Source: Prochlorococcus sp. AG-409-J16 (lineage in GTDB: Bacteria > Cyanobacteriota > Cyanobacteriia > PCC-6307 > Cyanobiaceae). Taken from it: a stretch of 64,000 nt of DNA. The notes beneath the pieces were generated by a model that was given only the letters and a program-made list of their open reading frames with translations, had not been told where the DNA came from and did not search any database. How positions within the stretch are numbered: the first letter of the stretch is position 1; each line of letters begins with the position of its first letter. This document shows positions 9,924 to 49,335 of this stretch, piece by piece. The position numbers and the translations under genes were made by a program. Location of the stretch: positions 1 to 64,000 of the forward strand of contig QCKB01000004.1 of NCBI GenBank assembly GCA_003215655.1, read 5' to 3'.

Positions 9924-11965
<2,042 letters not shown>

Positions 11966-12045
11966 TTACCACTTTTAAGCAATAGAAGCTCACAAATTTC
12001 GCGAAGACTTAACCCCAAAAAAAGCTTCAATCCAAACTAGAAGGC

Positions 12046-24536: not shown

Positions 24537-25333
24537 CCGTTTTCAAGGACCTTCCATCTACTTTCAAGCAAATTAATACGTGCCTGGTCCTCTTTATGCA
24601 TTATTCCGTAATACTCACGCTTATTAAGAAGCCATAGAAGTTCAAAGTGAACCGCCTGACGAAGAACTACGCCTAGGTTTTCAAGGCCTAATGCTGCTGA
24701 CTGAAAAACCATCTTTCTTGTTTCGAAGCGATCCAAATGAACTGCATTAAACCTCCTTAAATTGGGAAGAGCATCGCTGGAGATAGCACCTCCTACAACA
24801 AACTGAAGTCCACGTGATCGACACAATCGAGCAACTGATTCACCAGCAACTGTTACCTTCTCAGACTCAATACCCTCTCTACCTAATCCCAAAGATCCAC
24901 TGTAATCAACCCTTCCAAATACCACCCCATCACAACCAGGACGATTTGCTGCTAAATCAACCATCGATTCAATATTTTCAAATGCTGTACAAGTCTCTAC
25001 GTTAAATAAAAATGTAACATCATCTTGTTCAATTGCTGGGAAAACTTTTTCTTTAGCAGCAATATATTTTAAAAGTGCATAAGGAGTCTCAACCATAGGG
25101 GCAATTATATATCTAACACCAAATTGCTTTGCCTCTAATAAATCTCTAATAGCCTCACATCCTCCTATTTTTAATGCCAAACCAACTTCAGCCTTATTAG
25201 CAATTTCTAAAAGCCGTAATAATTCATCAGTTCTTGTTCCTTCTGCCTCGAACTCTGCTTTTGTAGCAACGATCCCAAACTCATCCCTTCCTTGGCGCAG
25301 AATGTCAAGCATTTTGCGCTCATTAACATTCAT
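24533..25333 (-). CDS. HpcH/HpaI-like (citrate lyase beta-type) aldolase
   Basis: A 266-residue TIM-barrel protein of the HpcH/HpaI aldolase and citrate-lyase-beta superfamily. The metal- and pyruvate-binding motifs are visible: APMVETPYALLKY supplies the Glu and GVVFGRVDYSGSLGLG the Asp and glycine loop. Members use pyruvate or acetyl units in class II aldol or lyase reactions. The family is better known in catabolism, so its place among nucleotide-sugar genes is notable: it may form or break a C-C bond on a sugar, or supply pyruvate to the thiamine-diphosphate enzyme encoded just upstream. The ATG at 25333 follows a candidate extended -10 promoter. Confidence 0.8.
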   Translation of the reverse strand: MNVNERKMLDILRQGRDEFGIVATKAEFEAEGTRTDELLRLLEIANKAEVGLALKIGGCEAIRDLLEAKQFGVRYIIAPMVETPYALLKYIAAKEKVFPAIEQDDVTFLFNVETCTAFENIESMVDLAANRPGCDGVVFGRVDYSGSLGLGREGIESEKVTVAGESVARLCRSRGLQFVVGGAISSDALPNLRRFNAVHLDRFETRKMVFQSAALGLENLGVVLRQAVHFELLWLLNKREYYGIMHKEDQARINLLESRWKVLENG

Positions 25334-25363
25334 AATTAGCCGCCAAATACAAATAATAATTTA

Positions 25364-25372
25364 ATTATATCA
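25364..25372 (-). promoter_or_regulatory. Candidate extended -10 promoter inside the polysaccharide operon
   Basis: In the 63-bp gap between the thiamine-diphosphate enzyme gene and the aldolase gene, the minus strand reads TGATATAAT, a perfect TATAAT with the TGn extension. Initiation about seven bases downstream would leave a leader of roughly 24 nt before the aldolase ATG. No good -35 hexamer lies at 16-18 bp, which extended -10 promoters can do without. If used, it would drive the five downstream genes separately from the rest of the operon. Confidence 0.4.
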
Positions 25373-25396
25373 CACTAGATAAATTTATTAGCTTAA

Positions 25397-27214: not shown

Positions 27215-27218
27215 TAGA

Positions 27219-28334
27219 CTATTTATTCATAGAATCAGGTTTTTGAATAGTTTCTTTTAGATGATTTAAAGTATTTCTTATTGCAGAAAGGATAAGATCC
27301 TGAGATTCTTTATCAGCAGGTATTCTTATTTCTTCAACACCAAGAGGTGTAATTGAATTTCTTGAAACTGGAACTATTAAATGAAAACAACCAACAGAGT
27401 GCTTCTTATCAGAAAGAAATGCTGCTAGAAATAAAGAATCCTCAAACGAATTTATTTGATCTAAACTTAATATAGGACTTAAAAGGGATAAGCAATGGTT
27501 CCATAATGGAGTTAGATAAGATTGATTGTCCTTAAACCGTATTGCAGCCATCATACCGATTGCTACGGCAAGACCATGTGGGACCGAAAATTTAGTAGCA
27601 GATTCAAGTGCATGTCCCCAAGTATGCCCAAAGTTCAACAATCGACGTTCAGCCTTATCAAATTCGTCTTTCTCTATAAACCATTTTTTAACTTCTAAAG
27701 TCATATATAGTAATTTTCCTAATTGATATTCATCCCATTCCTGATCTATTATAGGCTGAACTAATTTCTCATATTTTTCAAAAGTGAGACTTCCTCTACA
27801 AAAACATATTTTTGCAGCTTCAGCTATTCCAGCTATTAATTCTTCCTTAGGTAGAGATCTTGCAAATAGTGGAAGAATGTCAATTCTTTGAGGTGGGTAA
27901 AAGTTTCCTATCAAATTTTTATATGAACCAACATTAATTGAACTCTTGCCACCTAAACAAGAATCAGCCATTCCTAAGAAAGTTGTGGGGACATAACTCC
28001 AACTAATACCACGCATATATAAAGATGCTACAAACGTTGCAATATCCTGTACAACTCCACCGCCAATTGCAACCAAATGAGAATCACGCCCCAATCCAAC
28101 TTTCTTTAACTCAATAAAAACTTCAAGGATTGAACCAAAAGACTTTGCACACTCATTTGAATCAATCCAAATTATTGGTATATCGTTAGGGATAGAGAGT
28201 TTGTCAGAAAAAAAAGAATCTATTAAGAAAGCATTCCCTAAAGGAGACCAGCTGCTTAGATCAGTCAATGTAGAAAACTGAACTGAATAATTTGCTAAGG
28301 AGCTATTTATCTGTATATCAGGAAAATTCTTCAT
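27219..28334 (-). CDS. Sugar-phosphate cyclase superfamily enzyme (AroB-like)
   Basis: About 371 residues from the ATG at 28332-28334; the frame is open 14 codons further into the upstream gene. It is clearly homologous to 3-dehydroquinate synthase: GGGVVQDIATFVASLYMRG, PTTFLGMADSCLGGKSSIN, the metal-ligand Glu and neighbouring Lys in GIAEAAK, and the His ligands in LNFGHTWGHALE and VPHGLAVAIGM. All three metal ligands are kept, so it is probably active. Its place among CDP-sugar genes rather than shikimate genes suggests a specialised cyclase, or an NAD-dependent enzyme acting on a sugar derivative; I cannot exclude that it is the cell's dehydroquinate synthase. Confidence 0.8.
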   Translation of the reverse strand: MKNFPDIQINSSLANYSVQFSTLTDLSSWSPLGNAFLIDSFFSDKLSIPNDIPIIWIDSNECAKSFGSILEVFIELKKVGLGRDSHLVAIGGGVVQDIATFVASLYMRGISWSYVPTTFLGMADSCLGGKSSINVGSYKNLIGNFYPPQRIDILPLFARSLPKEELIAGIAEAAKICFCRGSLTFEKYEKLVQPIIDQEWDEYQLGKLLYMTLEVKKWFIEKDEFDKAERRLLNFGHTWGHALESATKFSVPHGLAVAIGMMAAIRFKDNQSYLTPLWNHCLSLLSPILSLDQINSFEDSLFLAAFLSDKKHSVGCFHLIVPVSRNSITPLGVEEIRIPADKESQDLILSAIRNTLNHLKETIQKPDSMNK

Positions 28335-28341
28335 AGCAATC

Positions 28342-29037
28342 TTAGAAGTGACTAAGTCCAATAAACCCACAATCAATAGTTAAAAACTGACCAGTTATTG
28401 AAGAGTTCAAAGGTCCTACTAAAAATGCTACAGCTGAAGCTATATCTTCAGGTAAAGCAAGCCTTCGCAATGCACTTTTCTCGGAAATAGAAGATATTTG
28501 CTTAGCTGAAAGATGTTGACGAGTCATTGGTGTATCGACAACTCCAGGCAAAACGGCATTAATAAGGATTCCTTTTGGCCCAAGATCAATTGCACAAGAC
28601 TTGACCAAACCATGTAGAGCAGATTTAGAGATTGTGTAAGACAATTTACCTGTTCTACTTTCTAACTGCATAATAGAGCTAACAAGACAGAGTCGAGACC
28701 CACTAGTCAATTTACCAGCCTTAAGTAGTGCTGAAAGAGTAGAAGTAATAAAGACAACATTTGAATTCCAAAGTTTATTCAGATCCTCTAACTCAAATTC
28801 ATTTATTGAATCACTGTGATTCAACCCTTGAGCCCAGATAACTGAATCCAAAGTGGGTAGGGACTCAAATAAATTTGGACCAAGTGAATCTTTATAAGAG
28901 ATTTGAATATGTGAACTTGAATCAATACCTCTGGCTGAACCTGATGTAAAAATAGAATATTTTTGCTTGGAAAGAGTTTCATAAATTGAAGTTCCGAGAG
29001 CACCACCTGATCCAAATAGCAAAGCATTCATAATCAT
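28342..29037 (-). CDS. Short-chain dehydrogenase/reductase
   Basis: A 231-residue classical SDR. The cofactor loop reads LFGSGGALGTSIYE, slightly degenerate against TGxxxGIG. The catalytic residues Ser, Tyr and Lys are present in SSIMQLES and YTISKSALHG, followed by NAVLPGVVDTPM and a FabG-like C-terminus (ITGQFLTIDCGF). It likely reduces a keto group with NADPH or NADH. In the yersiniose pathway an SDR called YerF reduces the branched product of YerE, and this gene could play that part; this is inference from neighbours. Its ATG overlaps the rfbH stop as ATGA, and its stop is seven bases before the likely cyclase start. Confidence 0.82.
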   Translation of the reverse strand: MIMNALLFGSGGALGTSIYETLSKQKYSIFTSGSARGIDSSSHIQISYKDSLGPNLFESLPTLDSVIWAQGLNHSDSINEFELEDLNKLWNSNVVFITSTLSALLKAGKLTSGSRLCLVSSIMQLESRTGKLSYTISKSALHGLVKSCAIDLGPKGILINAVLPGVVDTPMTRQHLSAKQISSISEKSALRRLALPEDIASAVAFLVGPLNSSITGQFLTIDCGFIGLSHF

Positions 29038-30578
29038 TTATTTAAAGAAGCTTCTTCTTTAACTGCAATAAATTTATCCTGGACAAATTGATGAATTAAA
29101 GCTAATTCGTGATCAATCATCTCATCTGTAAGACCTGGGTAAGTTCCTAAGAAAATTGCTTGTTGCATTAACTGATCAGCTCCTGACATTTCTGGAACGG
29201 CCATTCGAATTGCCTCGGGACTTTCCTCAATAAGTTTGACAAAGGCTGGCTGACGAAGAAGATTTCCACCAAACAACAGACGTGTTCCCACTCCCTTAGA
29301 AGCTAAATAGCTGCCTAATTCATAACTGCTAAAAGGTGCCTCTGTACGAACCAAAAGTAAGAAGCCAAACCAACTGCAATCTGTCCTCGAACCTGATGAA
29401 TCCCAAGAAAAGGATCCACTTGCTGAAAGATATTTAATGGCATGTGTAGGCAAGCAAAATGAAAAAACCTTATCCAATGAGTCCAACCCTTGCCTCAGTC
29501 TCTGCCAATTATGCTTGCGTGCCTCAATGAACTCTGGTAAGCGACGAATTTGTATTCTTCCAATAGCTGCCTGAGGGTCAAGGGGCTTAAGATTATAGCC
29601 AAAGTGAGAATAAATATATTTATGGTCATAACCCTTAGGTAACTCTCCAAGCTTCCAGTTGTAACGTTTTCCACAGGTGTCATCATGACCACTTGGACAC
29701 CAACAATCGCGACCCCAATCACGAAAACTCTCCACTATTCGCGCCAATCGAGAGCTTCTAACAATATTTACGGCCCCTCCTTCTCCCATAGTTAAGTGAT
29801 GAGGCGGATAAAAACTTTGTGTACTCAAATCTCCCCAAGTTCCTGTCCAACGAATTACATAATCAGGGCCAGCATCTAAACCAGGACTATTTTGATTAAA
29901 ACCTAAATCCTCTGCCTTTTTCTTAGGAAGGGTATAACTACATCCCAAAGCATCACAGTTATCTTCAATCAACCAAAGATCATACTTCTGACAAAAAGAT
30001 AACACTGCTCCAAGATCAAAAGGATTACCTAAAGCATGAGCTGCCATAACAGCCTTTGTCTTCCCTGGAACATATGCTGCTTCCAATTGATCAACACGAA
30101 TATTCCCAGTAATTGGATTGTTATCTACGAATACTGGAATACATCCATTCTGTAAAATTGGTGTAACTGTCGTAGGAAAACCTGCAGCGCAGGTAATCAC
30201 CTCATCATTTTTTTTAAGACGTTTCTGTAAAGGTAGCAAAGGAGATGTAAGGGCTGAAAGGGCAAGTAAGTTCGCAGATGAACCTGAATTAACTGCCAGA
30301 CAAGAACTTACGCCAAGAAATTCCGCTAATTCCTTCTGAAAAGCCTCACCTTCACTGCCCAAGGTCAACCAAAAATCAAGCGTACTGCTAATTGCAGCCT
30401 CAACCTCATCCTCAGTAAACACCCTTCCTGCATAAGGAATAGAATCACTATCAGAGTTAAATGCTGGCTTCAACTCATCTGAGCCAGGTCTAAATAACCG
30501 ATGAGCTAAGCGCGCATATTCACGAGTTAATCTCAAAATCTCTGCCTTCTTGTGATCTAACTCTGCTTGGCTTGCCAT
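29034..30578 (-). CDS. rfbH: CDP-4-keto-6-deoxyglucose-3-dehydrase (RfbH/AscC, E1 type)
   Basis: About 514 residues from the ATG at 30576-30578 (MASQAELDHKK); a TTG five codons earlier is also open. It belongs to the DegT/DnrJ/EryC1 fold, but the usual catalytic lysine is replaced by histidine in SFYPPHHLTMGEGGAV, the hallmark of PMP-dependent E1 dehydrases that remove the C3 hydroxyl of CDP-4-keto-6-deoxyglucose. The [2Fe-2S] cysteines are also present: CDALG upstream and the C-x-C-x7-C cluster in DCWCPSGHDDTC. The spacing between them is 83 residues, about 26 more than the C-x57-C described for the classical enzyme, because of an insertion after CDALG. The partner reductase (RfbI/AscD) is not in this window. 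Confidence 0.93.
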   Translation of the reverse strand: MASQAELDHKKAEILRLTREYARLAHRLFRPGSDELKPAFNSDSDSIPYAGRVFTEDEVEAAISSTLDFWLTLGSEGEAFQKELAEFLGVSSCLAVNSGSSANLLALSALTSPLLPLQKRLKKNDEVITCAAGFPTTVTPILQNGCIPVFVDNNPITGNIRVDQLEAAYVPGKTKAVMAAHALGNPFDLGAVLSFCQKYDLWLIEDNCDALGCSYTLPKKKAEDLGFNQNSPGLDAGPDYVIRWTGTWGDLSTQSFYPPHHLTMGEGGAVNIVRSSRLARIVESFRDWGRDCWCPSGHDDTCGKRYNWKLGELPKGYDHKYIYSHFGYNLKPLDPQAAIGRIQIRRLPEFIEARKHNWQRLRQGLDSLDKVFSFCLPTHAIKYLSASGSFSWDSSGSRTDCSWFGFLLLVRTEAPFSSYELGSYLASKGVGTRLLFGGNLLRQPAFVKLIEESPEAIRMAVPEMSGADQLMQQAIFLGTYPGLTDEMIDHELALIHQFVQDKFIAVKEEASLNK

Positions 30579-30619
30579 AAATTTAGAGCTCAAAAAAACT
30601 ACGCTAAGTCTGCAAAGTA

Positions 30620-31702
30620 TCAGCTCTTCAAATACCGATCTATCTGCTCAATACAAAGTGATCGTGACAATTCTCTTGAATTGAACCTGCGATACCACTC
30701 AACAGTCTGTGAAATCGTAACCTCAAAACTCCAACGAGGAGTCCAATCAAGCTGATGAAAAGCCTTATCAGTCGATAAATCGAGGCGCAAAGCTTCATGA
30801 ACAGATACCGAATCAGATTGATCAATCCATGTACCTGGCCAATGACTGAGAATTTCTTCAACAAGTTCCTGCACTGTCTTATTTGAGGCTCTATTAGGAC
30901 CAAAGTTAAATGCCGTAGCTAGAGAAGGATTCAAATATAAATTCTGTGCCAGCTTTAAATATCCATGAAGAGGTTCAAGAACGTGCTGCCATGGCCGCGT
31001 AGACCTAGGAGCCCTTACAGGTATAGGTTTTCCTTCTATCAAAGAACGAATTACATCTGGAACAATTCGATCCTTAGCCCAATCACCTCCACCTATCACA
31101 TTCCCTGCACGAGCAGAAGCTATTCGAAGGTTAGGCCTCTGATGAGGCATTTCGCCACAAAAACTTGAACGCCAACTAGCAATTGCTATTTCAGCTGCTG
31201 CCTTGCTACTGCTATATGGATCATGCCCACCTAATAGGTCCTCTTCTCGATACCCATAGTCCCAAGAACAATTCTGATAAACCTTATCTGTAGTTACTAT
31301 TACAGCGGCAACTTGGTGATCAACCTCACGAAGCGCCTCAAGGACATTGCATGTCCCAATTACATTGGTATTCCAGGTAAGTAGAGGGTCTTGATAACTT
31401 CTTCTAACAAGCGGCTGAGCAGCAAGGTGGAAAACAATTTCTGGTTGAAAAGCCTTGATTCTCTCTTTTAAATAAGCTGCATTCGCAAGATCCGATCTCA
31501 CGTCTTGAGCAAAATCTGAAGCAATTTCCAGACTTTCAAATAATGAAGGTCCTTCCTGATCATCAGGGTCCAATCCATACCCTTCAACCACAGCTCCCCA
31601 ATGCATAAGCCATAAAGCGAGCCAGCTGCCCTTAAAGCCTGTATGACCACTTAGCCATACTCGACGTCCTTTCCAGAAATCAATGGAGCAATTAGTAATC
31701 AT
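30620..31702 (-). CDS. rfbG: CDP-glucose 4,6-dehydratase
   Basis: About 360 residues from the ATG at 31700-31702, which shares a base with the rfbF stop (TAATG); the frame is open 12 codons further upstream. The loop VWLSGHTGFKGSWLALWL is diagnostic of RfbG, and TTDKVYQNCSWDYGYREED with YSSSKAAAEI gives the catalytic Asp/Glu-Tyr-Lys set. The enzyme oxidises C4 and removes the C6 hydroxyl of CDP-glucose with tightly bound NAD, giving CDP-4-keto-6-deoxyglucose, the substrate of RfbH encoded next. It acts in the cytoplasm. Confidence 0.94.
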   Translation of the reverse strand: MITNCSIDFWKGRRVWLSGHTGFKGSWLALWLMHWGAVVEGYGLDPDDQEGPSLFESLEIASDFAQDVRSDLANAAYLKERIKAFQPEIVFHLAAQPLVRRSYQDPLLTWNTNVIGTCNVLEALREVDHQVAAVIVTTDKVYQNCSWDYGYREEDLLGGHDPYSSSKAAAEIAIASWRSSFCGEMPHQRPNLRIASARAGNVIGGGDWAKDRIVPDVIRSLIEGKPIPVRAPRSTRPWQHVLEPLHGYLKLAQNLYLNPSLATAFNFGPNRASNKTVQELVEEILSHWPGTWIDQSDSVSVHEALRLDLSTDKAFHQLDWTPRWSFEVTISQTVEWYRRFNSRELSRSLCIEQIDRYLKS

Positions 31703-32472
31703 TACCAAGTCTTCCAAGGCGCTCGTTTGGCTTGCCATAGTTCCTCCAATAATTGACGATCTCGCAAAGTGTCCATTGGCTGCCAGAAACCATGATGCTG
31801 AAAAGCATTTAACTGGTTCATAGCTGCTATCTCAGGCAAGCAGTCTTGTTCCCAAATACTTTTATCTCCTTGAATGAGATTTAACACTTCTGGCTCTAAG
31901 ACAAAGAACCCACCATTGATCCATGAACCATCTCCCTGAGGCTTTTCCTCAAATGAAAGAACTCTGCCTCTTTCAAACGCCAAAGAACCAAAACGTCCAG
32001 GAGGTTGAACTGCGGTAAGAGTTGCCCAGCGTCCTTGCTTTTTATGGAAATCAATGGCTGCTGTTATATCTACATCAGCAACTCCGTCACCATAAGTAAA
32101 ACAAAATGGTCCTTTATCATCAAGATATGAAGAGACCCTTCGCAATCTTCCACCAGTAAGAGTGGATTCCCCTGTATCAACAAGAGTGACCTTCCAAGGT
32201 TCAACATTTTGTTGATGAACTTCCATATGATTTTTGTTCATATCAAAAGTTACATCACTACTGTGAAGAAAGTAATTCGCAAAATACTCCTTAATCAAAT
32301 AACCTTTATAACCGCAGCAAATTATGAAATCATTAATTCCATGATGGGAATAAATTTTAAGAATATGCCAAAGAATAGGGCGGCCCCCAACCTCAACCAT
32401 TGGCTTAGGTTTAAGATGAGTTTCTTCAGAGATGCGCGTGCCAAGCCCACCGGCAAGAACAACGGCTTTCAT
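31702..32472 (-). CDS. rfbF: Glucose-1-phosphate cytidylyltransferase
   Basis: A 256-residue nucleotidyltransferase that joins CTP and glucose-1-phosphate to make CDP-glucose, the entry step of the pathway. Visible are the pyrophosphorylase loop [38 protein letters not shown], the RfbF-typical [14 protein letters not shown] and [12 protein letters not shown] with the metal-binding Asp. Length matches the family. It lies 3 bp downstream of the Wzm-like permease gene and overlaps rfbG by one base, so export and sugar synthesis genes share a transcript. Confidence 0.95.
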
Positions 32473-37594: not shown

Positions 37595-38482
37595 ATGAAA
37601 GTACTAATTACAATCCCACATGTTTTTGCTCCAAAAATAGATTCACCTTATTCTTCACAAAGGGAAGAAAAGCGAGACCTAAAAAGAAAAGCCCTATTTA
37701 ATGCAACTATAGAAAATATTAATCGACATGGGAAAAGGAGTTGGATTCATGCATCACTTGGAAAAGGTAAAGAGATTATCACTAGAGAGATCGAGGCAAA
37801 TTTAGGTATTGACCTTACTGTAAAAATTTATACTCATAAAGTACACACTCTTGCTGATTCACTTCCTATTCAAAAGGGTCTGGAGATCATTTATGCAGAA
37901 GAAAATGATGTCGCCAAAATACCTATGATTGCTTCTAAAAATGCAATTGAAGAAGTTGATAACTATGACCTTATAGGCTATATGGAAGATGATATCTTGA
38001 TAGAGGATAAAGAATTTTTTGCCAAAATAGAAAAACTAGTTGAGATAACTGGTGGAGAATATGCTTTTTTGCCTCATAGGTGTGAAAAGATTCCCAGTGA
38101 AGGTGATGTGATACTTTCTGGCGATCCTGATGGAGGAAGACCAGACCTATTTTGGGATACAGGAGAAACAATTCAAATAACTTGGCCTTTAGGTAAACGT
38201 AGTTTTTACAGAGCTACCAATCCGCATTCAGGTTGTTATTTCTTAATGCAAGAACAAGCTAAAAAAGTAAGAGATTACTGGCATGAAAATAAATGGAACG
38301 CAACATTTCAGCTCTCCGGACCTCTAGAACAAGCAGGTAGTGGAATATTACTACCTGTACTAAAATTGATGAAGCCTATACCTTCAGATTACAGATTTCT
38401 ATCTGTATTACATCAAGATGAGCTTTGGAAAAGACACCCAAAGGAAATTAAAGCTAATTCATGGATAGAACTCAAAGATTAG
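37595..38482 (+). CDS. Putative GT-A-like glycosyltransferase, uncharacterised family
   Basis: A 295-residue protein I cannot place in a named family. It opens MKVLITIPHVFAP and carries DLIGYMEDDILIED, a DXD-like metal site after a hydrophobic strand, then YAFLPHRCEKIP, TNPHSGCYFLMQEQA and GPLEQAGSGILLPVLKLMKP. The same motifs in the same order occur in the protein at 61481-62338, so the two define a family within this window. The layout (Rossmann-like start, DXD, acceptor-side motif) fits a GT-A glycosyltransferase. It follows the sulfotransferase gene by one base and overlaps the TPR-SGNH gene by 22 bp. Confidence 0.65.
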   Translation: MKVLITIPHVFAPKIDSPYSSQREEKRDLKRKALFNATIENINRHGKRSWIHASLGKGKEIITREIEANLGIDLTVKIYTHKVHTLADSLPIQKGLEIIYAEENDVAKIPMIASKNAIEEVDNYDLIGYMEDDILIEDKEFFAKIEKLVEITGGEYAFLPHRCEKIPSEGDVILSGDPDGGRPDLFWDTGETIQITWPLGKRSFYRATNPHSGCYFLMQEQAKKVRDYWHENKWNATFQLSGPLEQAGSGILLPVLKLMKPIPSDYRFLSVLHQDELWKRHPKEIKANSWIELKD

Positions 38483-40128
38483 AATCAGCAAAACAAGCAT
38501 TAATTATAAATGCACATCAAAGCGATATATATCGGCATATCGGTGAACTTTTTCATGGAGAAACTCTCTATCAAAAAGCAATCAAAGCATTTAACTGTTC
38601 TTTGAATATAAATAATCAGGACGATCAAACACACTGCAGCTTAGGTCTAACATTACACAATCTTGGCAGACATAAAGAAGCAATTTATCATTATAAAAAA
38701 GCTGCAGATTTAAATCCTAAAAATTATACTGCACTTTACTATATAGGTTTTATTCTTATTCAAGAAAATAGAGTAGAAGAAGCAATCGAATCATTAAAAA
38801 GTTGTATTTCTATTTCTAAAGATACTTCACCAGCTTATTATCTTCTAGGTTTAGCTCTAGAACGACAAGGTCAATATAAAGAGGCAAGAAGAATTATAGA
38901 TGAAAAAATACTCGAAAATAAAACGCTTTTTCCAGAAATCTCTTTTGCAATGGGAGAGTTGGAGACAAAAAGGAGGCAATATCAATGTCACAGTTCACAT
39001 TCAGGTGGCCTAGTTGAAATATTACTATCCAAACTAAATAAAAAAAAATTACATTGTTTTGGAGACTCGCATAGATCCGTATTTAACAATCTCCCATTCA
39101 TTGAATGTCATAATGTTGGCTCTGGAACTGCTTACAATTTAATTAAAGTAGAGAGTACATCTGGTGCAGGAAACCAAATACTTGAAAAAATAAAAATTTT
39201 CAACCCAGAAGAGGATGCATTAATAATGGCTTTTGCAGAAATTGATTGCATGGAACATATTGGGAAGAGAAGTATGTTAGATCAAGTCGATCCAAACGAT
39301 TTGATAAAGTTTTTAGCCAATAGATATTGTGAATTTATTGACAAATTAATCAGTAAAGGATTTAAAGTCTTGATATATGGTCCAGCATTTAGTGGATATG
39401 CATTGAATTCATATGCATCACAAAAAGAAAGAAATTATATGCTTATTAAGCTTAATCAGAAAATGAGGGAGCGATGTAACAACAAGAAGAATGCGTGGTT
39501 TACATCATTAGATGATTTATTCATTAATAGTAAAAATATACTGCCAAGGATGAATTTTTCTGAAGATGCCAGGCATCTTGACTTTTTCCCTTCTGGCTCA
39601 AGTGAAATCCAATCAATAATATTATCAAGATTTATCCAAGAAATGTCAGATACCTATAATGAAATAAATAATAGGTTTAAAACAATTCATTCACTTCAAA
39701 ACCATTGTGTTAATAAGCCATTTATTATTGTAAAAAATTCCAAAAAGTCTTGCTTAGTAAAAGGCATACTTAATGAAGTTAATAAAATAGAAATAGAAAA
39801 TAACAAAGATGATTTTACATCTATGATAATAGATTTATTAGACCATACCCTTATTAGTCAGATTTCATTTGGAATAAATTCCATCGGCAATGGTAAAGAG
39901 TTAAATATAAAAATATTTATTGAATTATTTAGCCAGAAAGGGATTGTTTTTGGCTCTGAAACAACAGCAAAAACAGGATCAAAATTCAATATGATTTTCG
40001 ATCCAAAAATATCTAGAAGTATCAGAATTAGATTCAAAACATTAGAGAAATCAGCTTTTACAATAAATAAATTATTGATTGCTGGAAAAATCTATATTGT
40101 CCAAGGCTTAAGCCATTGTGATTACTAG
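38461..40128 (+). CDS. TPR protein fused to an SGNH-like hydrolase/acyltransferase domain
   Basis: A 555-residue protein of three parts. Residues 20-150 are TPR repeats (GLTLHNLGRHKEAIYHYKKA, IGFILIQENRVEEAIESLKS). Residues about 195-390 look SGNH-like: CFGDSH at 199-204 with the nucleophile-type Ser after GD, GSGTAY near 220, and a C-terminal D-A-R-H (369-372) in the usual Asp-x-x-His position. Residues 400-555 are unassigned and beta-rich in appearance. SGNH domains in glycan clusters often add or remove O-acetyl groups, so modification of the surface sugar is a fair guess. DNA here is among the most AT-rich of the window. Confidence 0.7.
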   Translation: MDRTQRLESAKQALIINAHQSDIYRHIGELFHGETLYQKAIKAFNCSLNINNQDDQTHCSLGLTLHNLGRHKEAIYHYKKAADLNPKNYTALYYIGFILIQENRVEEAIESLKSCISISKDTSPAYYLLGLALERQGQYKEARRIIDEKILENKTLFPEISFAMGELETKRRQYQCHSSHSGGLVEILLSKLNKKKLHCFGDSHRSVFNNLPFIECHNVGSGTAYNLIKVESTSGAGNQILEKIKIFNPEEDALIMAFAEIDCMEHIGKRSMLDQVDPNDLIKFLANRYCEFIDKLISKGFKVLIYGPAFSGYALNSYASQKERNYMLIKLNQKMRERCNNKKNAWFTSLDDLFINSKNILPRMNFSEDARHLDFFPSGSSEIQSIILSRFIQEMSDTYNEINNRFKTIHSLQNHCVNKPFIIVKNSKKSCLVKGILNEVNKIEIENNKDDFTSMIIDLLDHTLISQISFGINSIGNGKELNIKIFIELFSQKGIVFGSETTAKTGSKFNMIFDPKISRSIRIRFKTLEKSAFTINKLLIAGKIYIVQGLSHCDY

Positions 40129-40191: not shown

Positions 40192-41364
40192 ATGCGAAAA
40201 TATAATACTCAACCATGCTCTACAAAGGTGCGCATAGTCTTGGTCAACCATGGAACCGCCTCTGAATGGGGAGGAGGTGATGGGGTTCAAATCCGTGAAA
40301 CCGCTAAAAGGCTTATCCAACGTGGACATGCAGTAAGTATTCAAAATAGTGACAGGCCAAATATTGATAGCGCTGACATCGTTCATATATTTAATTGCAG
40401 AGTTCAAGATTCATTTTTTCAACAAATAGAAACTTGTCAGAATGCTGGTAAACCAGTTGTTGTCTCGCCAATCTGGATATCTATTGGACGCGCCATATGG
40501 GGGAGTAGGGGAACTTATGCGATTCTTCAGAAGGGAATTAATCAAGGAGAAGAATCTATTCAATCAGACCTAAAACAATTGAGGAATAGAAAGCTAATAG
40601 TAACTATTAATCAGCAAGAAATCAATTCCCATGGTTTGGGGACATATGACCTTGATTGGCAAGAAAAAGTAAGCGAGTTACTAAGACAAGCTAATGGTCT
40701 TCTTCCTAACAGCTGGTTAGAGTTAAAGGCTATACAAACCGACTTGTATTGGAGCGGGGATAATTACGAGATTGCACATTACGGGGTTGATTCCTCAATA
40801 TTTCTTGATGCAGATCCTGAGCTATTCAGAAGGCATACAGGCATACAAGGTCCTTTTGTATTGCAAGCAGGTCGTATAGAAGCAGGCAAAAACCAAGCAA
40901 TGCTCTGCTGGGCCTTAAAAGAAACTAATTTACCGATTGTTCTAATAGGTGGAACAAAGCACTGGCCTGCATATGCGGAAATTTGCAAAGCAATCAGCGG
41001 TGACAAACTGACGATAATTGATCATTTACCTCAGAACCTTCTTGCCTCTGCTTATGCAGCAGCAAGAGTTCACTGCTTAGCAAGCTGGATGGACACTTGT
41101 GGTTTAGTCAGCCTAGAGGCGGGGCTAAGTGGTACTCCATTAGTGGGTAGTACGTTTGGCCATGAGCTCGAATACTTGCAAGGAGATGCCTGGCTAGCAG
41201 ATCCGGGAGATCCGGAAAACTTAAGACAAGCAGTTCAAAATGCATGGAATGCAGGACATCATTCGGATAGGCCTACGCGGTTAAAGAAAAGAATTCTTAG
41301 CGATTTCAATTGGGAAAAAACAGCTGATGCAACCGAGGCACTATATAAAAAGGTGTTAAATTAA
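40192..41364 (+). CDS. Family 4 glycosyltransferase
   Basis: A 390-residue GT-B enzyme. The N-terminal domain has VRIVLVNHGTASEWGGGDGVQ and ADIVHIFNCRVQDSF; the C-terminal donor domain has FVLQAGRIEAGKNQAMLCWAL, IDHLPQNLLASAYAAARVHCL and the EX7E-like region TCGLVSLEAGLSGTPLVGS. The donor sugar is unknown. Codon use and GC look closer to the core genome than the three genes just upstream. It is convergent with the methyltransferase gene, the stop codons lying 7 bp apart. Confidence 0.88.
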   Translation: MRKYNTQPCSTKVRIVLVNHGTASEWGGGDGVQIRETAKRLIQRGHAVSIQNSDRPNIDSADIVHIFNCRVQDSFFQQIETCQNAGKPVVVSPIWISIGRAIWGSRGTYAILQKGINQGEESIQSDLKQLRNRKLIVTINQQEINSHGLGTYDLDWQEKVSELLRQANGLLPNSWLELKAIQTDLYWSGDNYEIAHYGVDSSIFLDADPELFRRHTGIQGPFVLQAGRIEAGKNQAMLCWALKETNLPIVLIGGTKHWPAYAEICKAISGDKLTIIDHLPQNLLASAYAAARVHCLASWMDTCGLVSLEAGLSGTPLVGSTFGHELEYLQGDAWLADPGDPENLRQAVQNAWNAGHHSDRPTRLKKRILSDFNWEKTADATEALYKKVLN

Positions 41365-42285: not shown

Positions 42286-43842
42286 CTAACGAAATTGCTT
42301 GATACCCTCAAATTGTTTAGTAAACATATCAGTCAATATTGTTATAGCAGGACGTGTTCTAAGCTTTATATTTGCGGTTACTCCCATTCCACTCTGCAAG
42401 TTGAGCTCATCCTTGCCAGATTGAACAGATTGTTCCTGTAAGCTAATAATTCCTGGAAAACGATATTGATTACTTGTTCGATCAGGCGGCAAAGCGTCAG
42501 ATCCTAAGCTAGTCAATGTGCCTTTCATATATCCGAACTCCCCTGAGGGGAAGGAATCAACAGTAACAGAAGCTGGCATTCCAACCTTAAGAAAACCAAT
42601 ATCACTATTCTTAATGTCGACCTTTGCTTGCAATAGATTATCAGGAACAATTTTTAATAAAACTTGCCTTGGATTAACTACTGAATAAGGAGCAACTTTC
42701 GAATCAAAGATTGTGCCATCAATAGGTGCAAGAATAGTACGATAACTAATAGCCTCTTTAACAGTATCCAAATCTGAACGAAGATTAATTTGTTGCCGAT
42801 TAACTTGATTTAATTGCGTATTAGCAGATCCAATAATACGTATTTTCTCTTCCATAAGTGAAGCAACTTCAGCACGAAGTTCCTGTACCCTGTTCAACTG
42901 ATTTAAGTAGCTATTCCTTGCCATAGCACCAACTTCATATAAAGGCTTAAGGTCCTTAGCTATCTGTTTCTGTAACCTATAGGACTCTCTTCGACTTTCT
43001 ATTCTTGTTCCAAGTTGTTCAATAGTAGAGCGAAGCTGCTGTGTCTGATTGCGAGCTGTATTTAACTTATTTGATAGATCAGGGTCATCAACCAAGGGTA
43101 AAGCTGGCATAGGACCTAACCGTGAAGGTTCACCATCACTGGCAATAATTGCTTGAAGAGCTAATGCTTGCAATTCAAGCATTACCAAGCTCTGCTCAAG
43201 CCCTTTTCTTCTACTCGCTAGACCTTTTGCTTCAACATCCATAAGAGGCTGTCCTGCTTGTACCAATTGTCCTTCTCTAACAAAAACCTTACGAACTACT
43301 CCGTTGCTTGGAGACTCAATTTTTTTAACACTGCCAGAGGGCTCAAGCCGTCCTCGAACACTAATTGTCTGATCAATTCGTGCTGTAAATGCCCAAATTA
43401 CAACTGTTCCGCATAAGCCAGCTGAAATCCAAATCAAGGCAGAAGACCAATGCCTTCCCTGCTCAACGAATGCAGAGCTACCTACCCATGGTTGAATTTG
43501 AGAAGCAGACTCATCTTTTGCTTCTACAGGCTGATTCTTAGCCGTTATGAAAGACTCGTCTTCAGGTTTAATAACACTCTTTAAAACAATCTTTGCCTGA
43601 GGCAATGCATTTTTTACACGCCGAGAAAACGCGCTAGCCTGATCACCATACTTTATAGAGTTTTTTATTGCCTTTGAACCAACTTCCAGAGACTTATCTA
43701 TAATCTTATCGCCTATTTTGCGAGTCTTATCTATTAATTTTGATGCTTTAGTACTTGATCTATAAAATGCATTTTTAAATAATTTAGATGATTTTTTGAA
43801 AATCATAGATTGAGATATTTTAGAGAAGAGGTTTTCAGTCAA
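42286..43842 (-). CDS. Type I secretion membrane fusion protein (HlyD family)
   Basis: A 518-residue periplasmic adaptor. An unusually long, basic N-terminal cytoplasmic region of about 130 residues precedes a single membrane helix (SSALIWISAGLCGTVVIWAF). The biotinyl-lipoyl half-motif (SPSNGVVRKVFVREGQLVQAGQPLMDV), a long coiled-coil hairpin (about residues 215-370) and the second half-motif (ILAPIDGTIFDSKVAPYSVV) follow. The start is TTG at 43842, overlapping the transporter stop by eight bases (TTGACTGA) and preceded by AGGAG seven bases away, so I accept it over the internal ATG at 43806. It links the ABC transporter encoded upstream to an outer-membrane TolC-like channel not present here. 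Confidence 0.92.
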   Translation of the reverse strand: MTENLFSKISQSMIFKKSSKLFKNAFYRSSTKASKLIDKTRKIGDKIIDKSLEVGSKAIKNSIKYGDQASAFSRRVKNALPQAKIVLKSVIKPEDESFITAKNQPVEAKDESASQIQPWVGSSAFVEQGRHWSSALIWISAGLCGTVVIWAFTARIDQTISVRGRLEPSGSVKKIESPSNGVVRKVFVREGQLVQAGQPLMDVEAKGLASRRKGLEQSLVMLELQALALQAIIASDGEPSRLGPMPALPLVDDPDLSNKLNTARNQTQQLRSTIEQLGTRIESRRESYRLQKQIAKDLKPLYEVGAMARNSYLNQLNRVQELRAEVASLMEEKIRIIGSANTQLNQVNRQQINLRSDLDTVKEAISYRTILAPIDGTIFDSKVAPYSVVNPRQVLLKIVPDNLLQAKVDIKNSDIGFLKVGMPASVTVDSFPSGEFGYMKGTLTSLGSDALPPDRTSNQYRFPGIISLQEQSVQSGKDELNLQSGMGVTANIKLRTRPAITILTDMFTKQFEGIKQFR

Positions 43843-46800
43843 GGTCAGTCTCCTGTTGTGAATAGAGAGCGTAGTAACGACCCTTAAGCTCTAACAGTTC
43901 CTTATGAGTTCCTTTCTCTATTAACGATCCCTGGTCTAACATTAAAATCTGATCAGCTGCTCGAATAGTAGACAGACGATGGGTGATAAAAAATACTGTT
44001 GAACCACTAAACTCCTTCTTTAAGTTTATACAAACTTGCCTTTCTGTTAAATAGTCCAATGCACTAGTTGCTTCATCCAAAATCAACAAAGAAGGCCTTT
44101 GCAAAACTGCTCGAGCAATAGCAATTCTCTGTCGCTGTCCGCCAGATAAGCCCGATCCCCTCTCACCAACTCTTGTTACGTAACCATCAGTTAACTCCAT
44201 AATGAAATCATGAGCACAAGCGACTCTTGCCGCATGCACAATTTCCTCAGTAGATGCATCGGGACAAGTTAAAGAAATATTATCCCGAATAGTCCCTTCA
44301 AATAACAAACTGTCTTGAGGAACAATTCCTATCTGTCTTCTAACAGATCCTAGTTGCAATTTACCAATGTCATAACCATCAATAAGAATGCGACCAGAAG
44401 ATGGCTCATAAAGTCTAGGAACTAATTTCATTATTGTGCTTTTTCCACTACCACTTCTTCCAACAATTCCTACAAACGCACCTGCAGAAATTTCAAAACC
44501 TACACGATTAACGACTAATGGAGATCCATCATTAAATCGAAAATCAACATCCTGAAACTCAACTTCTCCTGCAATAGGTGGCAAAGGTAACTGATCTAGA
44601 TCCTCTGTCGAGCCTTCGGCAGTTGCATCAACTACATCACTCAAACGCTCCATAGATAAAGCTACACTTTGGAAACTTTGCCAACTGGTAGCAAGATTCA
44701 ATAAAGGTCCAACTACATAGCCAGAAATAATCCTAAATGCTATTAATTGCCCAATAGTTAATTGGCCCTTAATCACTAAATATGCTCCTACCCAAAGTGT
44801 CAATAAACCAGTTAATTGATTTAAAAAGGCCCCTACAGTCCCAGCAGAAACTCCTATCATTAGTGTCCTAAAATTTTCACTCATAAAATTCGAATATCGT
44901 CTCTGCCACTGCCAACGCACATTATTTTCAGCATTCTGCGCCTTAATAGTTTGGACTCCATTAAGAGACTCAACTAATAAGGATTGAGTTCTTGCATTTG
45001 CCTCTGCAGCCTTTCTCAACTGTCCTCGAATTATTGGAGAAACCACTACTACTAAACCAAGAAATAAAGGAATAACTCCAAGTGTTACGGCTGTAAGGAC
45101 ACCAGAGTAAACAAACATCACTCCTATATATATGACTGAGAAAACAGCATCAAGAACAAGAGTTAAGAGGCTACCAGTCAAGAAATTCCTAATGTTCCCC
45201 AATTCCGCCAATCTGGTCTGCAATTCACCTACAGGCCGATTATCAAAATAACGCTGAGGCAATCGCAAAAGGTGCTGTATAACTTGTGCACCTAATGCAA
45301 TATCTATTCTATTTGTAGTATCAGCAAATAAGTATGTCTGTACGGCTCCTATTAAACCTTGAAAAAGAGCAACACCTAAAAGAACTATACCAAGGGTATA
45401 TAGAGTATCTAAATTTTGCTGAACTATAACTTTATCAAATATCTGTTGCATAACCAAAGGTTGAGCAAGACCCAAAAGTTTCAGCATTAAAGCTGCAAAA
45501 AAGACTTCTATGAGACTTCTTCGATATTTTCGTAATTGAGGGAAAAACCATTTAAAGTTAAGTTTCCTTTGATGTACATCTCGACTAGGTGTTAAACAAA
45601 GTATGCGAGCTCCCGCTTCTCCTTTAAGCAATTCATCTAAGGAAAAAGTAACGCGTCCGTATTCTGGTAAAACAGCTTTTACTTCTCCATTACTTATATC
45701 ATGAATCATTGCTAACTGGTCTTCACAAATTGCAAAACAAGGAAAACTAACTCTTGAAAGTTGAGCAGATGGTAAGTCACTTATTGTTCCAAAAAAACCC
45801 ATTAAAGTAGAAAGATTTCCAAGAGTTTCTAAGCTAACTTTTCGATTTCTTAGAGTCTCTTTAGCAGCTCTCTCTAATACATCCTTTCGGAAAGGGACAT
45901 TGTAAAAAAGAGATAGCATTTCGAGGCAAGCCATTGTTTGCCCGAGGCTGCCTATACCAGATGAAACAGGAATGCGGTTACCCTTCCATAAGATAGGAGC
46001 TGAATCCTTCTCGAGATTAGGAATATTTATTTCATCAAAACGTTCCCCTTGGGGAGCTGGTGCCTGAACCAGTAAATCTTTATACCTATCATCTTGTTCT
46101 GGTTGGGGTGGTAAAGAGGTGTCTTCAATTCCCTCTAAAGATGGTCGCAACTCACGCTCCCATATTTCTCGAACTATTCGAACTAAACGAAGAGGTTCTC
46201 CTTGTGGGATCGTTTTTAAAACTTCGGCTTTTACTTCTTGACCTATAGGTAAATTCTTTTCCTTTATTTGTGCATTCCAAAGCCAGATAAAATTTTCATC
46301 TTCAGGTAAATCTCTTTCTTGCCTTGCAGCTACAAGTTTCATATATGGAAGCAAACGCCGCATAACTTCTCTCTCTTGAGGCTCTGCAAAAGGCCTACAT
46401 CGCATCCCAGGCTCTAAAACATTTATTAATTCTGCAGGGGAATTATTTGTATCAAGCCATTCAGAAAAAGATTTATCTCTTCTTTCAAGCTCATAAAAGG
46501 TTTCGGCAGTAAAGCCAATAAGTTGCAATGGAGTAGCTGCTGTTATCCATTCACAAGGATATTTTCTAGCCAATCCCGCCCAGCCAACTAAATCATATGG
46601 ATTTGAAAAAGCAAGAGTTACTGGACGACGCAAGCCAGGATCAGTATGAAGAACTCGACCTCTACCTTCTACAATGAAGTAGCAATAGTCAGGCATCCGA
46701 TCAGATACCAAGAGTTGTTGACCTATATTGCAATAAAAGTCCTGTGTTCTCTTTGCCAACCATTCAATATTCTCCTCACTAAGAGAACTAAAAGCAGGCG

Positions 46801-46846
46801 ATTTAATCAGAAGAGTCTGATTTTTTGATATTGAACTATTTGCCAT
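43835..46846 (-). CDS. Type I secretion ABC transporter with N-terminal cNMP-binding and C39-like domains
   Basis: A 1003-residue exporter. Residues about 10-130 look like a cyclic-nucleotide-binding fold (YCYFIVEGRGRVLHTD, NPYDLVGWAGL). Around residues 290-420 lies a C39-like domain whose catalytic Cys and His are missing: GSLGQTMACLEML has Gln where peptidases have Cys. That is the pattern of HlyB-type transporters that bind but do not cut their substrate. The membrane domain spans about 445-715, and the ATPase has Walker A GRSGSGKST (about 800), signature LSGGQRQR (about 902) and Walker B LLILDEATS. It shares TAATG with the foldase gene. The RTX-like protein encoded 7 kb away is the obvious candidate substrate. 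Confidence 0.93.
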   Translation of the reverse strand: MANSSISKNQTLLIKSPAFSSLSEENIEWLAKRTQDFYCNIGQQLLVSDRMPDYCYFIVEGRGRVLHTDPGLRRPVTLAFSNPYDLVGWAGLARKYPCEWITAATPLQLIGFTAETFYELERRDKSFSEWLDTNNSPAELINVLEPGMRCRPFAEPQEREVMRRLLPYMKLVAARQERDLPEDENFIWLWNAQIKEKNLPIGQEVKAEVLKTIPQGEPLRLVRIVREIWERELRPSLEGIEDTSLPPQPEQDDRYKDLLVQAPAPQGERFDEINIPNLEKDSAPILWKGNRIPVSSGIGSLGQTMACLEMLSLFYNVPFRKDVLERAAKETLRNRKVSLETLGNLSTLMGFFGTISDLPSAQLSRVSFPCFAICEDQLAMIHDISNGEVKAVLPEYGRVTFSLDELLKGEAGARILCLTPSRDVHQRKLNFKWFFPQLRKYRRSLIEVFFAALMLKLLGLAQPLVMQQIFDKVIVQQNLDTLYTLGIVLLGVALFQGLIGAVQTYLFADTTNRIDIALGAQVIQHLLRLPQRYFDNRPVGELQTRLAELGNIRNFLTGSLLTLVLDAVFSVIYIGVMFVYSGVLTAVTLGVIPLFLGLVVVVSPIIRGQLRKAAEANARTQSLLVESLNGVQTIKAQNAENNVRWQWQRRYSNFMSENFRTLMIGVSAGTVGAFLNQLTGLLTLWVGAYLVIKGQLTIGQLIAFRIISGYVVGPLLNLATSWQSFQSVALSMERLSDVVDATAEGSTEDLDQLPLPPIAGEVEFQDVDFRFNDGSPLVVNRVGFEISAGAFVGIVGRSGSGKSTIMKLVPRLYEPSSGRILIDGYDIGKLQLGSVRRQIGIVPQDSLLFEGTIRDNISLTCPDASTEEIVHAARVACAHDFIMELTDGYVTRVGERGSGLSGGQRQRIAIARAVLQRPSLLILDEATSALDYLTERQVCINLKKEFSGSTVFFITHRLSTIRAADQILMLDQGSLIEKGTHKELLELKGRYYALYSQQETDLD

Positions 46847-47586
46847 TAACCCTGTTCATAATGGATCTCCTCAATAGAATCTCCTTTCATAATTTTCTTA
46901 ACACGATCATCAAGAAATTTGTTCAAAAGATTCTTCAATAGATCACTACGCATAGACACATCGAAACGCGCTGGGGTTAAGTTTTCAAGTCTAATCAAAG
47001 CATGCCACTCTTTTGTCCCATCACTCATTTTTATTGGTGGGTGAATTTCTCCATTCTGAAGGGATCGCAAACACTGCCCTAAGCTTAAAGGCCTGATTTG
47101 ACCCATTGCAATAGGGCCAACAATTCCTTTTCTAGAAGCCTCAGGCCCTTCTCCATAGTTAGTCGCAAGATCAACGAAAGCTGCTTCCCCTTCTTCAAGT
47201 CTTATCCAAAGCTCACGCGCTAAAAACATGTCTTCGACTCTCAAAATTGAATAAACAACTTCATCGTATGCACCTTTTGAAGCTAAAAATGATTCCTCTA
47301 AAGATGGTCCCCATCTTGCCTCTGAAAAAAGTCTCAGAGCCTCTGGTCGAGAGAGGTGTAAATCAAGATCTTCTTCATTCCACCCTCGGTATTTCAAAAC
47401 TTCTTTCAAATCTTTTCCAACAAGAAACTTCTCTTTTTCCTCTTTAACCCATTCTTCTGGGACTGGAACAATTGATGTGATCAATTCTTCTTGCTGTCGT
47501 CGAACTACAACAGCTACATGAGCCATTCTCACTACTAGGCCTTCAATCTCTTCTGAAGTCAAATAGGGCAATTTATTATCAGCCAT
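46846..47586 (-). CDS. Parvulin-like peptidyl-prolyl isomerase (PpiC-type) of the secretion operon
   Basis: A 246-residue protein without a signal peptide. The C-terminal half resembles a PpiC rotamase domain: FVDLATNYGEGPEASRKGIVGPIAMGQI, CLRSLQNGEIHPPIKMSDG and HALIRLENLTPARF. The N-terminal half is helical and SurA/PrsA-like. It lacks an obvious export signal, so it may act on the substrate in the cytoplasm before secretion. Start and stop both overlap the neighbours as TAATG, which binds it tightly to the ABC transporter. Foldases of this kind next to type I systems are unusual but have been seen in marine cyanobacteria. Confidence 0.82.
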   Translation of the reverse strand: MADNKLPYLTSEEIEGLVVRMAHVAVVVRRQQEELITSIVPVPEEWVKEEKEKFLVGKDLKEVLKYRGWNEEDLDLHLSRPEALRLFSEARWGPSLEESFLASKGAYDEVVYSILRVEDMFLARELWIRLEEGEAAFVDLATNYGEGPEASRKGIVGPIAMGQIRPLSLGQCLRSLQNGEIHPPIKMSDGTKEWHALIRLENLTPARFDVSMRSDLLKNLLNKFLDDRVKKIMKGDSIEEIHYEQG

Positions 47587-49334
47587 TAGTGCAACTTCGC
47601 AGCAGCCAGTTCAGTTAGGTCAAGCAGAAATAGTCGATCAAGAGCCTTCTGCAGCTCTCTTATAACGCCTACCCAGTCGCCCTGTTCTTTTTGACGGAAT
47701 AAACGCATGCAACCTGGGTACCAAGGTGAGTCCAGGCGATCGCGCAACCAGCGAAAATCTGGATTACGTGGCAAAAGTAACCAGGTTGGTTTATTCAAAG
47801 CTCCTGCGAGATGAGCAACTGCGGTATCAACTGTTATAACAAGATCAAGCTGATTAAGTACATATGCCGTATCAGCAAAATCCTTGAGTTGATCGTTCCA
47901 ATCAATAATACGAGGATGATCCCTCCAGGGCTGAAGTTGTACTGCATCTACACCAACTTGCAAACTATGCAAATCAATCAAATCAAGAGATAAAAGATCT
48001 AAAAGTACTGGCATCAAAATTTCAAGAGGGAGGCTCTTGTGTCGATACATCTCTCGATTAGAAGCATTAGCAGCCCAAACAATTCCTATAGATAGGCCGC
48101 CAGGTGGATCTTTAAGCTGGAGATTCTTTGGAGGGTCTCCTGGAGGCCGAAGATAAGGGATTGTGGCCGGGATACTAAAAAGGTCTGTATTAAATAAGGC
48201 TGGAAGACTCATTAAAGGTATATGGGGCCTTAAATCTTTCAAATCAGTTTGATCACCTTTAATCCTAAGCTTCAACCATGGGGCATTAAACCAATCTCGA
48301 AAAAGGACTAAAAGTTCTCTTGGACATTGGAACTCGCACACGAACCCAGTAGCATTTAAAAGATTTAAATATCTGGAAAATTGGATAGAATCTCCTAACC
48401 CTTGTTCACACCATACAACTAAATCTCCTTCACTTTTTATTGTTGAATCTTGAAGCTTATGAAGCCGTGGCCCTCCAGTTGGAACTGATTCAAGAGGAAC
48501 TAAATGTGTTCTCAATCTTGCTTCATAAAAACGCCAACCAGATTCAAAGCGGCCTAGCAGCAAATGGCAAAGTCCTAAATTCCAAAGGGCATGAGAAGAA
48601 CTCTTCTCTAACTCCACACCTCTCTCTAAAAAAACAAGCGCCTCATTTAGCCTCAAACATTTTACTAACAATGTCCCCATATTTACATGACTTGCTAAAT
48701 GCTTTTTGTCATATGAAATCGCCTTATAAAAGCAAGACTCGGCTTGAGTGAAATCATCATTTCCCATAAAAGATAAGCCAAGATCCGACCATCCATCTGG
48801 ATGATCAGGCATCAAAACTAAGCTGCTCTTAAATACAAAAATTGCCTCCTTAAACCTAAGTTGCTCTCTCAATAATAAGCCAAAATTATACCAAGTAAAA
48901 GGCTTAAAGGGGTCAATCCTTAGGCTGTCAAGATAAGATTTCTCGGCAGAAACAGGATCATCATCAGAAAGAATGTTAGCAAGGTTGTAGTGGGCATCTG
49001 CTCGTCGAGGGTTTATATCAAGAGCTCTCTGATAAGCATTTAGAGCCACTTCTTTTCCATCCTCAAACCCACTGCAAGCCATCCCAAGCAATAACCAATA
49101 TTCATCTATTTCATGAATGTCCGAAGGTGCAGATTCCAAACATGCTCGGGCATCATCTGACCGATCAAGCCTCCAAAGTGCCAAGGCCTCTGGCAATGCC
49201 CAAAAGGAGTCTCCAGTACTAGAACGAAGAAGAAGAACCTGATCCAAAAATTCTTCTAATGGTTTTCCTGCTGACAGGTGTATAGCCTGTTCAAGTGCTT
49301 CTTCATAGGATTCAAATGAGAAGTGCTCTTGCAT
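47586..49334 (-). CDS. TPR protein with GT9-like glycosyltransferase domain
   Basis: About 582 residues from the ATG at 49332-49334; a GTG three codons upstream is also open. TPR repeats fill residues 70-280 (ADAHYNLANILSDDDPVSAE, GWSDLGLSFMGNDDFTQAES, ALWNLGLCHLLLGRFESGW). From about residue 300 comes a heptosyltransferase-like region: WCEQGLGDSIQFSRYL, then IGIVWAANASNREMYRHKSL and VITVDTAVAHLAGALNKPTW near residue 505. The family is common in bacteria but its acceptors are mostly unknown. Being first in the secretion operon, it may modify the exported protein. Its ATG and the ATG of the divergent GT41 gene share the four bases CATG. Confidence 0.82.
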   Translation of the reverse strand: MQEHFSFESYEEALEQAIHLSAGKPLEEFLDQVLLLRSSTGDSFWALPEALALWRLDRSDDARACLESAPSDIHEIDEYWLLLGMACSGFEDGKEVALNAYQRALDINPRRADAHYNLANILSDDDPVSAEKSYLDSLRIDPFKPFTWYNFGLLLREQLRFKEAIFVFKSSLVLMPDHPDGWSDLGLSFMGNDDFTQAESCFYKAISYDKKHLASHVNMGTLLVKCLRLNEALVFLERGVELEKSSSHALWNLGLCHLLLGRFESGWRFYEARLRTHLVPLESVPTGGPRLHKLQDSTIKSEGDLVVWCEQGLGDSIQFSRYLNLLNATGFVCEFQCPRELLVLFRDWFNAPWLKLRIKGDQTDLKDLRPHIPLMSLPALFNTDLFSIPATIPYLRPPGDPPKNLQLKDPPGGLSIGIVWAANASNREMYRHKSLPLEILMPVLLDLLSLDLIDLHSLQVGVDAVQLQPWRDHPRIIDWNDQLKDFADTAYVLNQLDLVITVDTAVAHLAGALNKPTWLLLPRNPDFRWLRDRLDSPWYPGCMRLFRQKEQGDWVGVIRELQKALDRLFLLDLTELAAAKLH

Positions 49335-49335
49335 G
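49332..49335. other. Shared palindromic start of two divergent genes (CATG)
   Basis: The plus-strand GT41 gene starts with ATG at 49333-49335 and the minus-strand TPR-GT9 gene with ATG at 49334-49332, so both start codons lie inside the palindrome CATG. Each gene's promoter and ribosome-binding region must therefore lie inside the coding sequence of the other. If the minus gene uses the GTG at 49343 the overlap grows to 11 bp. Confidence 0.6.

Follow-up and report, generated by a model that had tools for sequence, protein, structure and literature searches.

Proteins A and B, encoded in the genome of Prochlorococcus sp. AG-409-J16, are supported as members of a family of glycosyltransferases with a predicted GT-A fold, for which neither Pfam nor NCBIfam holds a model. 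The window, i.e., the whole stretch of DNA analysed, comprises the 64,000 nucleotides at positions 1-64,000 of contig QCKB01000004.1 (assembly GCA_003215655.1). An earlier note on this DNA had predicted a new glycosyltransferase family from the sequence; what is added here is the link between this family and a co-inherited secretion and glycosylation module.

A pair of proteins and their relatives

Protein A (37595-38482, forward strand) is 295 amino acids long and protein B (61481-62338, reverse strand) 285; both start with ATG, and they represent the A-type and B-type subfamilies, respectively. That the two are related, as the earlier note had claimed, is confirmed: both reading frames are open, and the proteins share 27% identity across 292 columns, covering nearly their whole length (BLASTP, E = 6e-16). 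The local alignment score is 163, compared with a mean of 34 for shuffled sequences (sd 5, maximum 59 in 1000 shuffles; z = 26). A and B are the only family members in the 1.84 Mb host genome.

All of the shared motifs that had been listed are present in both proteins and in the same order, starting at residues 131 in A and 127 in B (EDD), 159 and 155 (LPxRxE), 209 in both (NPHSGCxFL), 242 and 240 ([GS]PLExA), and 260 and 258 (KP). Only the bracketed start of the first motif was slightly off, the actual sequences being GYMEDDILI and CYLEDDLLI. A further conserved histidine, outside the original motif list, is found at position 273 in A and 271 in B. The residues that recur below are thus EDD 131-133, NPHSGC 209-214, PLE 243-245 and His 273 in A, and EDD 127-129, NPHSGC 209-214, PLE 241-243 and His 271 in B.

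A profile search had been suggested as one check of novelty, and no existing glycosyltransferase family of Pfam or NCBIfam claims A or B: neither protein matches any family model in these two collections, and their matches to PHROGs are at chance level at most. No glycosyltransferase model of Pfam is matched by any of 52 relatives, and none of NCBIfam by a third relative (L080). PDB sequences searched with the family profile give no match at a meaningful level. Snurportin-1, a mitoribosomal protein and NamZ appeared as weak matches and were rejected as relatives, since the matches are at chance level.

The family is widespread and has relatives throughout the Cyanobacteriota. Within the Cyanobiaceae, A is matched in 58 of 300 genomes and B in 57 (E <= 0.001), these being largely the same genomes. 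A phylum-wide profile search of 386 genomes identified 46 carriers, many of them outside the Cyanobiaceae, and one scan across the species genomes of GTDB yielded 165 family loci, the best 80 of which include Planctomycetota, Pseudomonadota, Chloroflexota and one Candidatus Uhrbacteria assembly. Three relatives are plasmid-borne, with Azospirillum and Nitrobacter among the plasmid carriers, and no relatives were found in phages or in IMG/VR. In the annotated records examined, family genes are named either 'hypothetical protein' or, misleadingly, 'calcium-binding protein'. The latter label, in Azospirillum oryzae, was considered as a sign of an RTX fusion and rejected; the gene has just 978 bases, and a transferred name is more likely.

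In a tree of 91 sequences, the A-type and B-type proteins form separate clades (100/100 and 98/99, respectively); A and B are therefore old paralogues and not the product of a recent duplication. All sequences of other families and phyla form one group (93/91), while the other picocyanobacterial forms (C) split into two groups.

The secretion cluster and its inheritance

The genes of A and B stand on either side of a type I secretion cluster. A is located inside a run of genes on the same strand, together with a sulfotransferase (PF00685, 36811-37593) that lies 1 base upstream and is kept beside A in relatives, and a TPR protein (38461-40128) that overlaps the end of A with its start and whose C-terminal part matches no assigned family. 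A GT4-type glycosyltransferase (40192-41364, forward strand), which is conserved in the cluster, and a methyltransferase (at 41372) come next. The reverse strand then encodes an HlyD-type periplasmic adaptor (42286-43842), a type I secretion ABC exporter with a cNMP-binding domain (43835-46846; the nearest NCBIfam model is TIGR01846, HlyB), a PpiC-type peptidyl-prolyl isomerase (46846-47586) and a TPR protein with a GT9 (heptosyltransferase-like) domain (47586-49343). These are followed by a TPR-GT41 (O-GlcNAc-transferase-like) glycosyltransferase on the forward strand (49333-51483) and a second TPR-GT41 enzyme on the reverse strand (51459-53576).

The putative exported substrate, an RTX/beta-roll protein of 679 amino acids without cysteine, is encoded at 53624-55663 on the reverse strand. 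Serine and threonine make up 28% of its residues, compared with a window mean of 12%, and 24-27% of the residues in five long homologues from equivalent clusters; the protein is likely to be an exported surface protein. Between this gene and B, there are two glycosyltransferases that combine PF12000 and GT1 domains (PF12000-GT4 enzymes; 55812-57050 and, nearer to B, 58293-59501, both on the reverse strand), a protein without a Pfam family at 59516, and a GT47/RXYLT1-C-like protein (60572-61477, reverse strand) that lies 3 bases downstream of B. The reverse-strand gene at 57051-58022 encodes another conserved cluster protein without a Pfam family, which has 323 amino acids and consists of two similar-looking halves connected by a Pro/Thr linker.

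The glycan context on which the earlier note had relied is present, and it is more specific than that of a generic polysaccharide locus alone, since the cluster is one for type I secretion and protein glycosylation. Elsewhere in the window, a reverse-strand operon (24533-32472) beside the genes of a Wzm/Wzt ABC transporter encodes an NTP transferase, SDR/dehydratase proteins, a long DegT aminotransferase (519 aa), a 3-dehydroquinate-synthase-like protein, a TPP enzyme and an HpcH/HpaI aldolase. It looks like a pathway for an unusual (amino- or cyclitol-like) sugar of a surface glycan.

The gene order of the cluster is conserved, with rearrangements in some cases, in the eight other genomes examined that carry A and B. 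Exporter orthologues were defined by at least 62% identity, which is separated by a clear gap from the next sequences at about 53%. Of 301 genomes of Cyanobiaceae, 19 have the exporter orthologue and 19 the B-type gene, with 18 having both (1 and 1 discordant, p 9e-27); the A-type gene is present in 16, in 15 of them with the exporter (1 and 4 discordant, p 8e-21); and the B-type gene shares 18 genomes with the TPR-GT41 enzyme encoded at 49333 (1 and 0 discordant, p 5e-28), where all p-values overstate the independence of genomes and loci that are related to each other. This TPR-GT41 enzyme is present in all 18 genomes that combine B with the exporter, and in no others. One genome carries A alone (G021) and one B alone (G158), without the rest of the module; both assemblies are incomplete or fragmented. 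Carriers and non-carriers are found inside one genus (e.g., g5, g10, g35 and g46), which suggests that the module is acquired or lost as a whole. At 16 of 30 loci of the C subfamily, another exporter of this type is found at a distance of up to 15 kb.

The reading towards which we lean, with modest confidence, is that A and B are metal-dependent glycosyltransferases which, in the cytosol, extend the O-glycans of RTX/beta-roll proteins destined for secretion; catalysis, donor, acceptor, the order of steps and sulfation are all putative. A and B would work with the two TPR-GT41 enzymes and the PF12000-type GT4 enzymes. GT41 would set the first sugar on serine or threonine of the Ser/Thr-rich RTX/beta-roll protein, the GT4 and GT-A enzymes would elongate this glycan in the cytosol, and the neighbouring sulfotransferase would sulfate it. 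The modification would take place before or during export through the adjacent type I secretion exporter.

It is also conceivable, and in our estimate rather unlikely, that A and B are GT-A enzymes of LPS O-antigen or exopolysaccharide synthesis that act on lipid-linked oligosaccharides, and that the secretion cluster is nearby because both belong to a shared surface-glycan island. Such a role is suggested by the Wzm/Wzt-like ABC transporter and nucleotide-sugar genes 2-14 kb from A, by the grouping of surface-glycan genes all along the window, and by relatives without secretion context, such as that of Azospirillum, where the family gene is found among unrelated genes. However, Wzt/Wzm homologues are located beside A in some relatives only, while the exporter, GT41 and the family are co-inherited as one unit. 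Moreover, fusions with PF12000-GT4 and GT41, as well as neighbouring RTX genes, are found repeatedly beyond the Cyanobiaceae.

The gene context outside the Cyanobiaceae was examined at 20 loci from other cyanobacterial families and in 20 control stretches of the same genomes. A PF12000-GT4 gene is present within 10 kb at 8 of the 20 loci and in none of the controls (p 0.0016), an isomerase at five loci and in no control (p 0.02), and a full-length exporter (>300 bits) likewise at five loci and in no control. Exporter-like matches of any strength do not differ significantly (10/20 loci, 5/20 controls), and the presence of RTX proteins near the family at five of 20 loci, compared with one of 20 controls, is suggestive only. 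In the species scan, an RTX reading frame lies within 3 kb at 26 of 72 loci. Most of these loci are from Microcoleaceae and their relatives, and as close kin they do not count as independent cases. In Oscillatoriales, the family gene is often 135-1700 bases away from a nearly cysteine-free RTX protein of 530-720 amino acids. At L188 (10535-12526), L200 (7372-9360) and similar Oscillatoriales loci, such proteins, of about 660 amino acids, are encoded beside both the family gene and a PF12000-GT4 gene.

Homologues of the PF12000-GT4 enzyme near B adjoin the family gene at three loci (L141, L143 and L148) and PF12000-GT1 is fused to the domain in two genomes (L145 and L149), these five loci belonging to Planctomycetota and a betaproteobacterium. 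Another fusion, of 1015 amino acids, joins the GT-A domain to GT41 (L191, genome G407, 9867-12911); it is encoded within an array of TPR-GT41 genes, near two pilin-like genes. The GT41 fusion is absent from all 14 relatives of G407 that were searched, and since it thus occurs in one of 15 genomes of its family, its weight as Rosetta-stone evidence is moderate rather than strong. In two relatives of G407 (G439 and G475), the family gene is far from GT41 genes, which speaks against the proposed role.

Predicted fold and candidate active site

Fold prediction and comparison with GT-A structures, the other check that had been suggested, give a GT-A fold for both proteins. The model of B, built with an alignment of 35 sequences, has a mean pLDDT of 91.5 and a pTM of 0.90, and that of A has values of 80.4 and 0.82. 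Foldseek returned 186 matches at E <= 1e-3, with GT6 and COLGALT1 on top. When the chains placed highest by Foldseek are ranked by Z, the best matches are SpsA (Z 14.7; 3.2 A over 194 residues) and B4GALNT1 (14.5) for A, and SpsA (13.8; 3.2 A over 198 residues), B4GALNT1 (13.4), WrtF (13.3) and LH3 (13.1) for B. The ranked lists for both proteins consist of GT-A enzymes, and include the fucosyltransferase WrtF, GT27 GalNAc-transferases, TarP and TarS.

Similar to A and B, SpsA of Bacillus subtilis (GT2; PDB 1h7l / 1qg8) is a single GT-A domain of comparable size. However, identity is 8-9% with no family-level sequence match, the LPxRxE, NPHSGCxFL and PLExA motifs are peculiar to A and B, and SpsA belongs to the spore coat rather than to a secretion cluster. 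The glycosyltransferase domains of the GT27 GalNAc-transferases, LH3 and B4GALNT1 also share the GT-A fold (Z about 12-14.5), but they are eukaryotic secretory-pathway enzymes with 6-13% identity to A and B. GT27 enzymes have a G-loop, an acidic residue at a helix start and a C-terminal histidine in the same order as the A/B family. Their DXD variant is DxH, and differs from the EDD of A and B (PMC7185993).

Taujale et al. 2020 (PMC7185993) describe a GT-A core in which DXD, G-loop, xED and C-His follow in this order. In the family, EDD, NPHxG, PLE and the C-terminal histidine follow in the corresponding order, with NPHxG and PLE as the candidate G-loop and xED, placed by order and secondary structure. 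The DXD site named in the earlier note stands: E-D-D is unvarying across 52 and 38 sequences, and is located where the central strand (122-127) of the B model ends. The NPHSG stretch comes just before strand 214-218. G213 of NPHxG is invariant, as is E243 of PLE, a glutamate without a following aspartate at the start of helix 241-253. The histidine (H271 in B, H273 in A), also invariant, closes the last strand (268-271) of the B model. In full, the invariant residues are, in B numbering, S20, D121, Y125, E127, D128, D129, D134, K140, P156, R158, E160, G175, N209, H211, G213, Q221, E243, K258 and H271. The prediction of a new glycosyltransferase family is therefore supported by the lack of a Pfam or NCBIfam model, the GT-A fold and the order of the core motifs, with novelty judged against these two collections.

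Very probably, members of the family have the glycosyltransferase activity that the models predict, and the enzymes are most likely metal-dependent and cytosolic. The papers searched yielded no biochemical data on the family. The acidic EDD cluster and the C-terminal histidine would hold a divalent metal and the diphosphate of the NDP-sugar, the NPHxG loop would interact with the donor, and the glutamate of PLE at the helix start would act as the catalytic base, if the enzyme inverts. We regard it as very improbable that the domain is instead degenerate or non-catalytic, with a scaffolding role. Such a role would fit a candidate base that is glutamate rather than the usual aspartate of xED, and the activity of the family is a prediction; however, glutamate bases are present in other GT-A families, with precedents in GT43 and GT14 (PMC7185993). 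A decayed enzyme would also not be expected to keep metal-site and loop residues that are invariant in members of several phyla. The least probable reading is a GT-A-like nucleotidyltransferase that makes a donor (of the NDP-sugar pyrophosphorylase or CMP-Kdo synthetase type). The Foldseek matches do include KdsB and GDP-mannose pyrophosphorylases, but the Z-ranked rows are glycosyltransferases, the C-terminal histidine and PLE motif are conserved, and the N-terminal signature of sugar nucleotidyltransferases, which is rich in glycine and arginine, is not seen in the family.

Glycosylated RTX proteins and a possible wider system

That cyanobacteria have RTX surface proteins with glycans attached has been known since the 1990s. 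Oscillin is a calcium-binding, heavily glycosylated RTX protein of 646 residues, and SwmA also appears to be glycosylated (PMC3034196). The literature searched yielded no glycosyltransferases for oscillin or other glycosylated cyanobacterial RTX proteins. The RTX neighbours of the family in Oscillatoriales (530-720 aa) are of about the same size as oscillin, and it is possible that RTX proteins of the type found at L188 and L200 are oscillin relatives.

Among known systems, the cluster in the window resembles those of HMW1C-like GT41 enzymes, in which a cytosolic GT41-type enzyme is encoded beside a secreted surface protein. HMW1C modifies asparagine, and its substrate exits by two-partner secretion. 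Glycosylation by HMW1C-like GT41 enzymes is described as N-glycosylation in PMC10507012. In contrast, the cluster in the window brings together TPR-GT41 enzymes, a type I exporter, and additional GT4 and GT-A enzymes.

Tentatively, and with less confidence than in the role proposed for A and B themselves, the family might supply the enzyme that elongates the glycans in a bacterial system of O-glycosylation which is widespread but has yet to be described. In such a system, RTX/beta-roll proteins would be decorated in the cytosol for type I secretion, with TPR-GT41 starting the glycan and PF12000-GT4 and GT-A enzymes elongating it, and it would include the missing oscillin-type glycosylation genes of filamentous cyanobacteria. 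The module supplies named candidate genes for the glycosylation of cyanobacterial RTX surface proteins. Recognition of the family provides a testable enzyme, and a marker by which a protein-glycosylation module can be traced in marine picocyanobacteria as well as in filamentous cyanobacteria.
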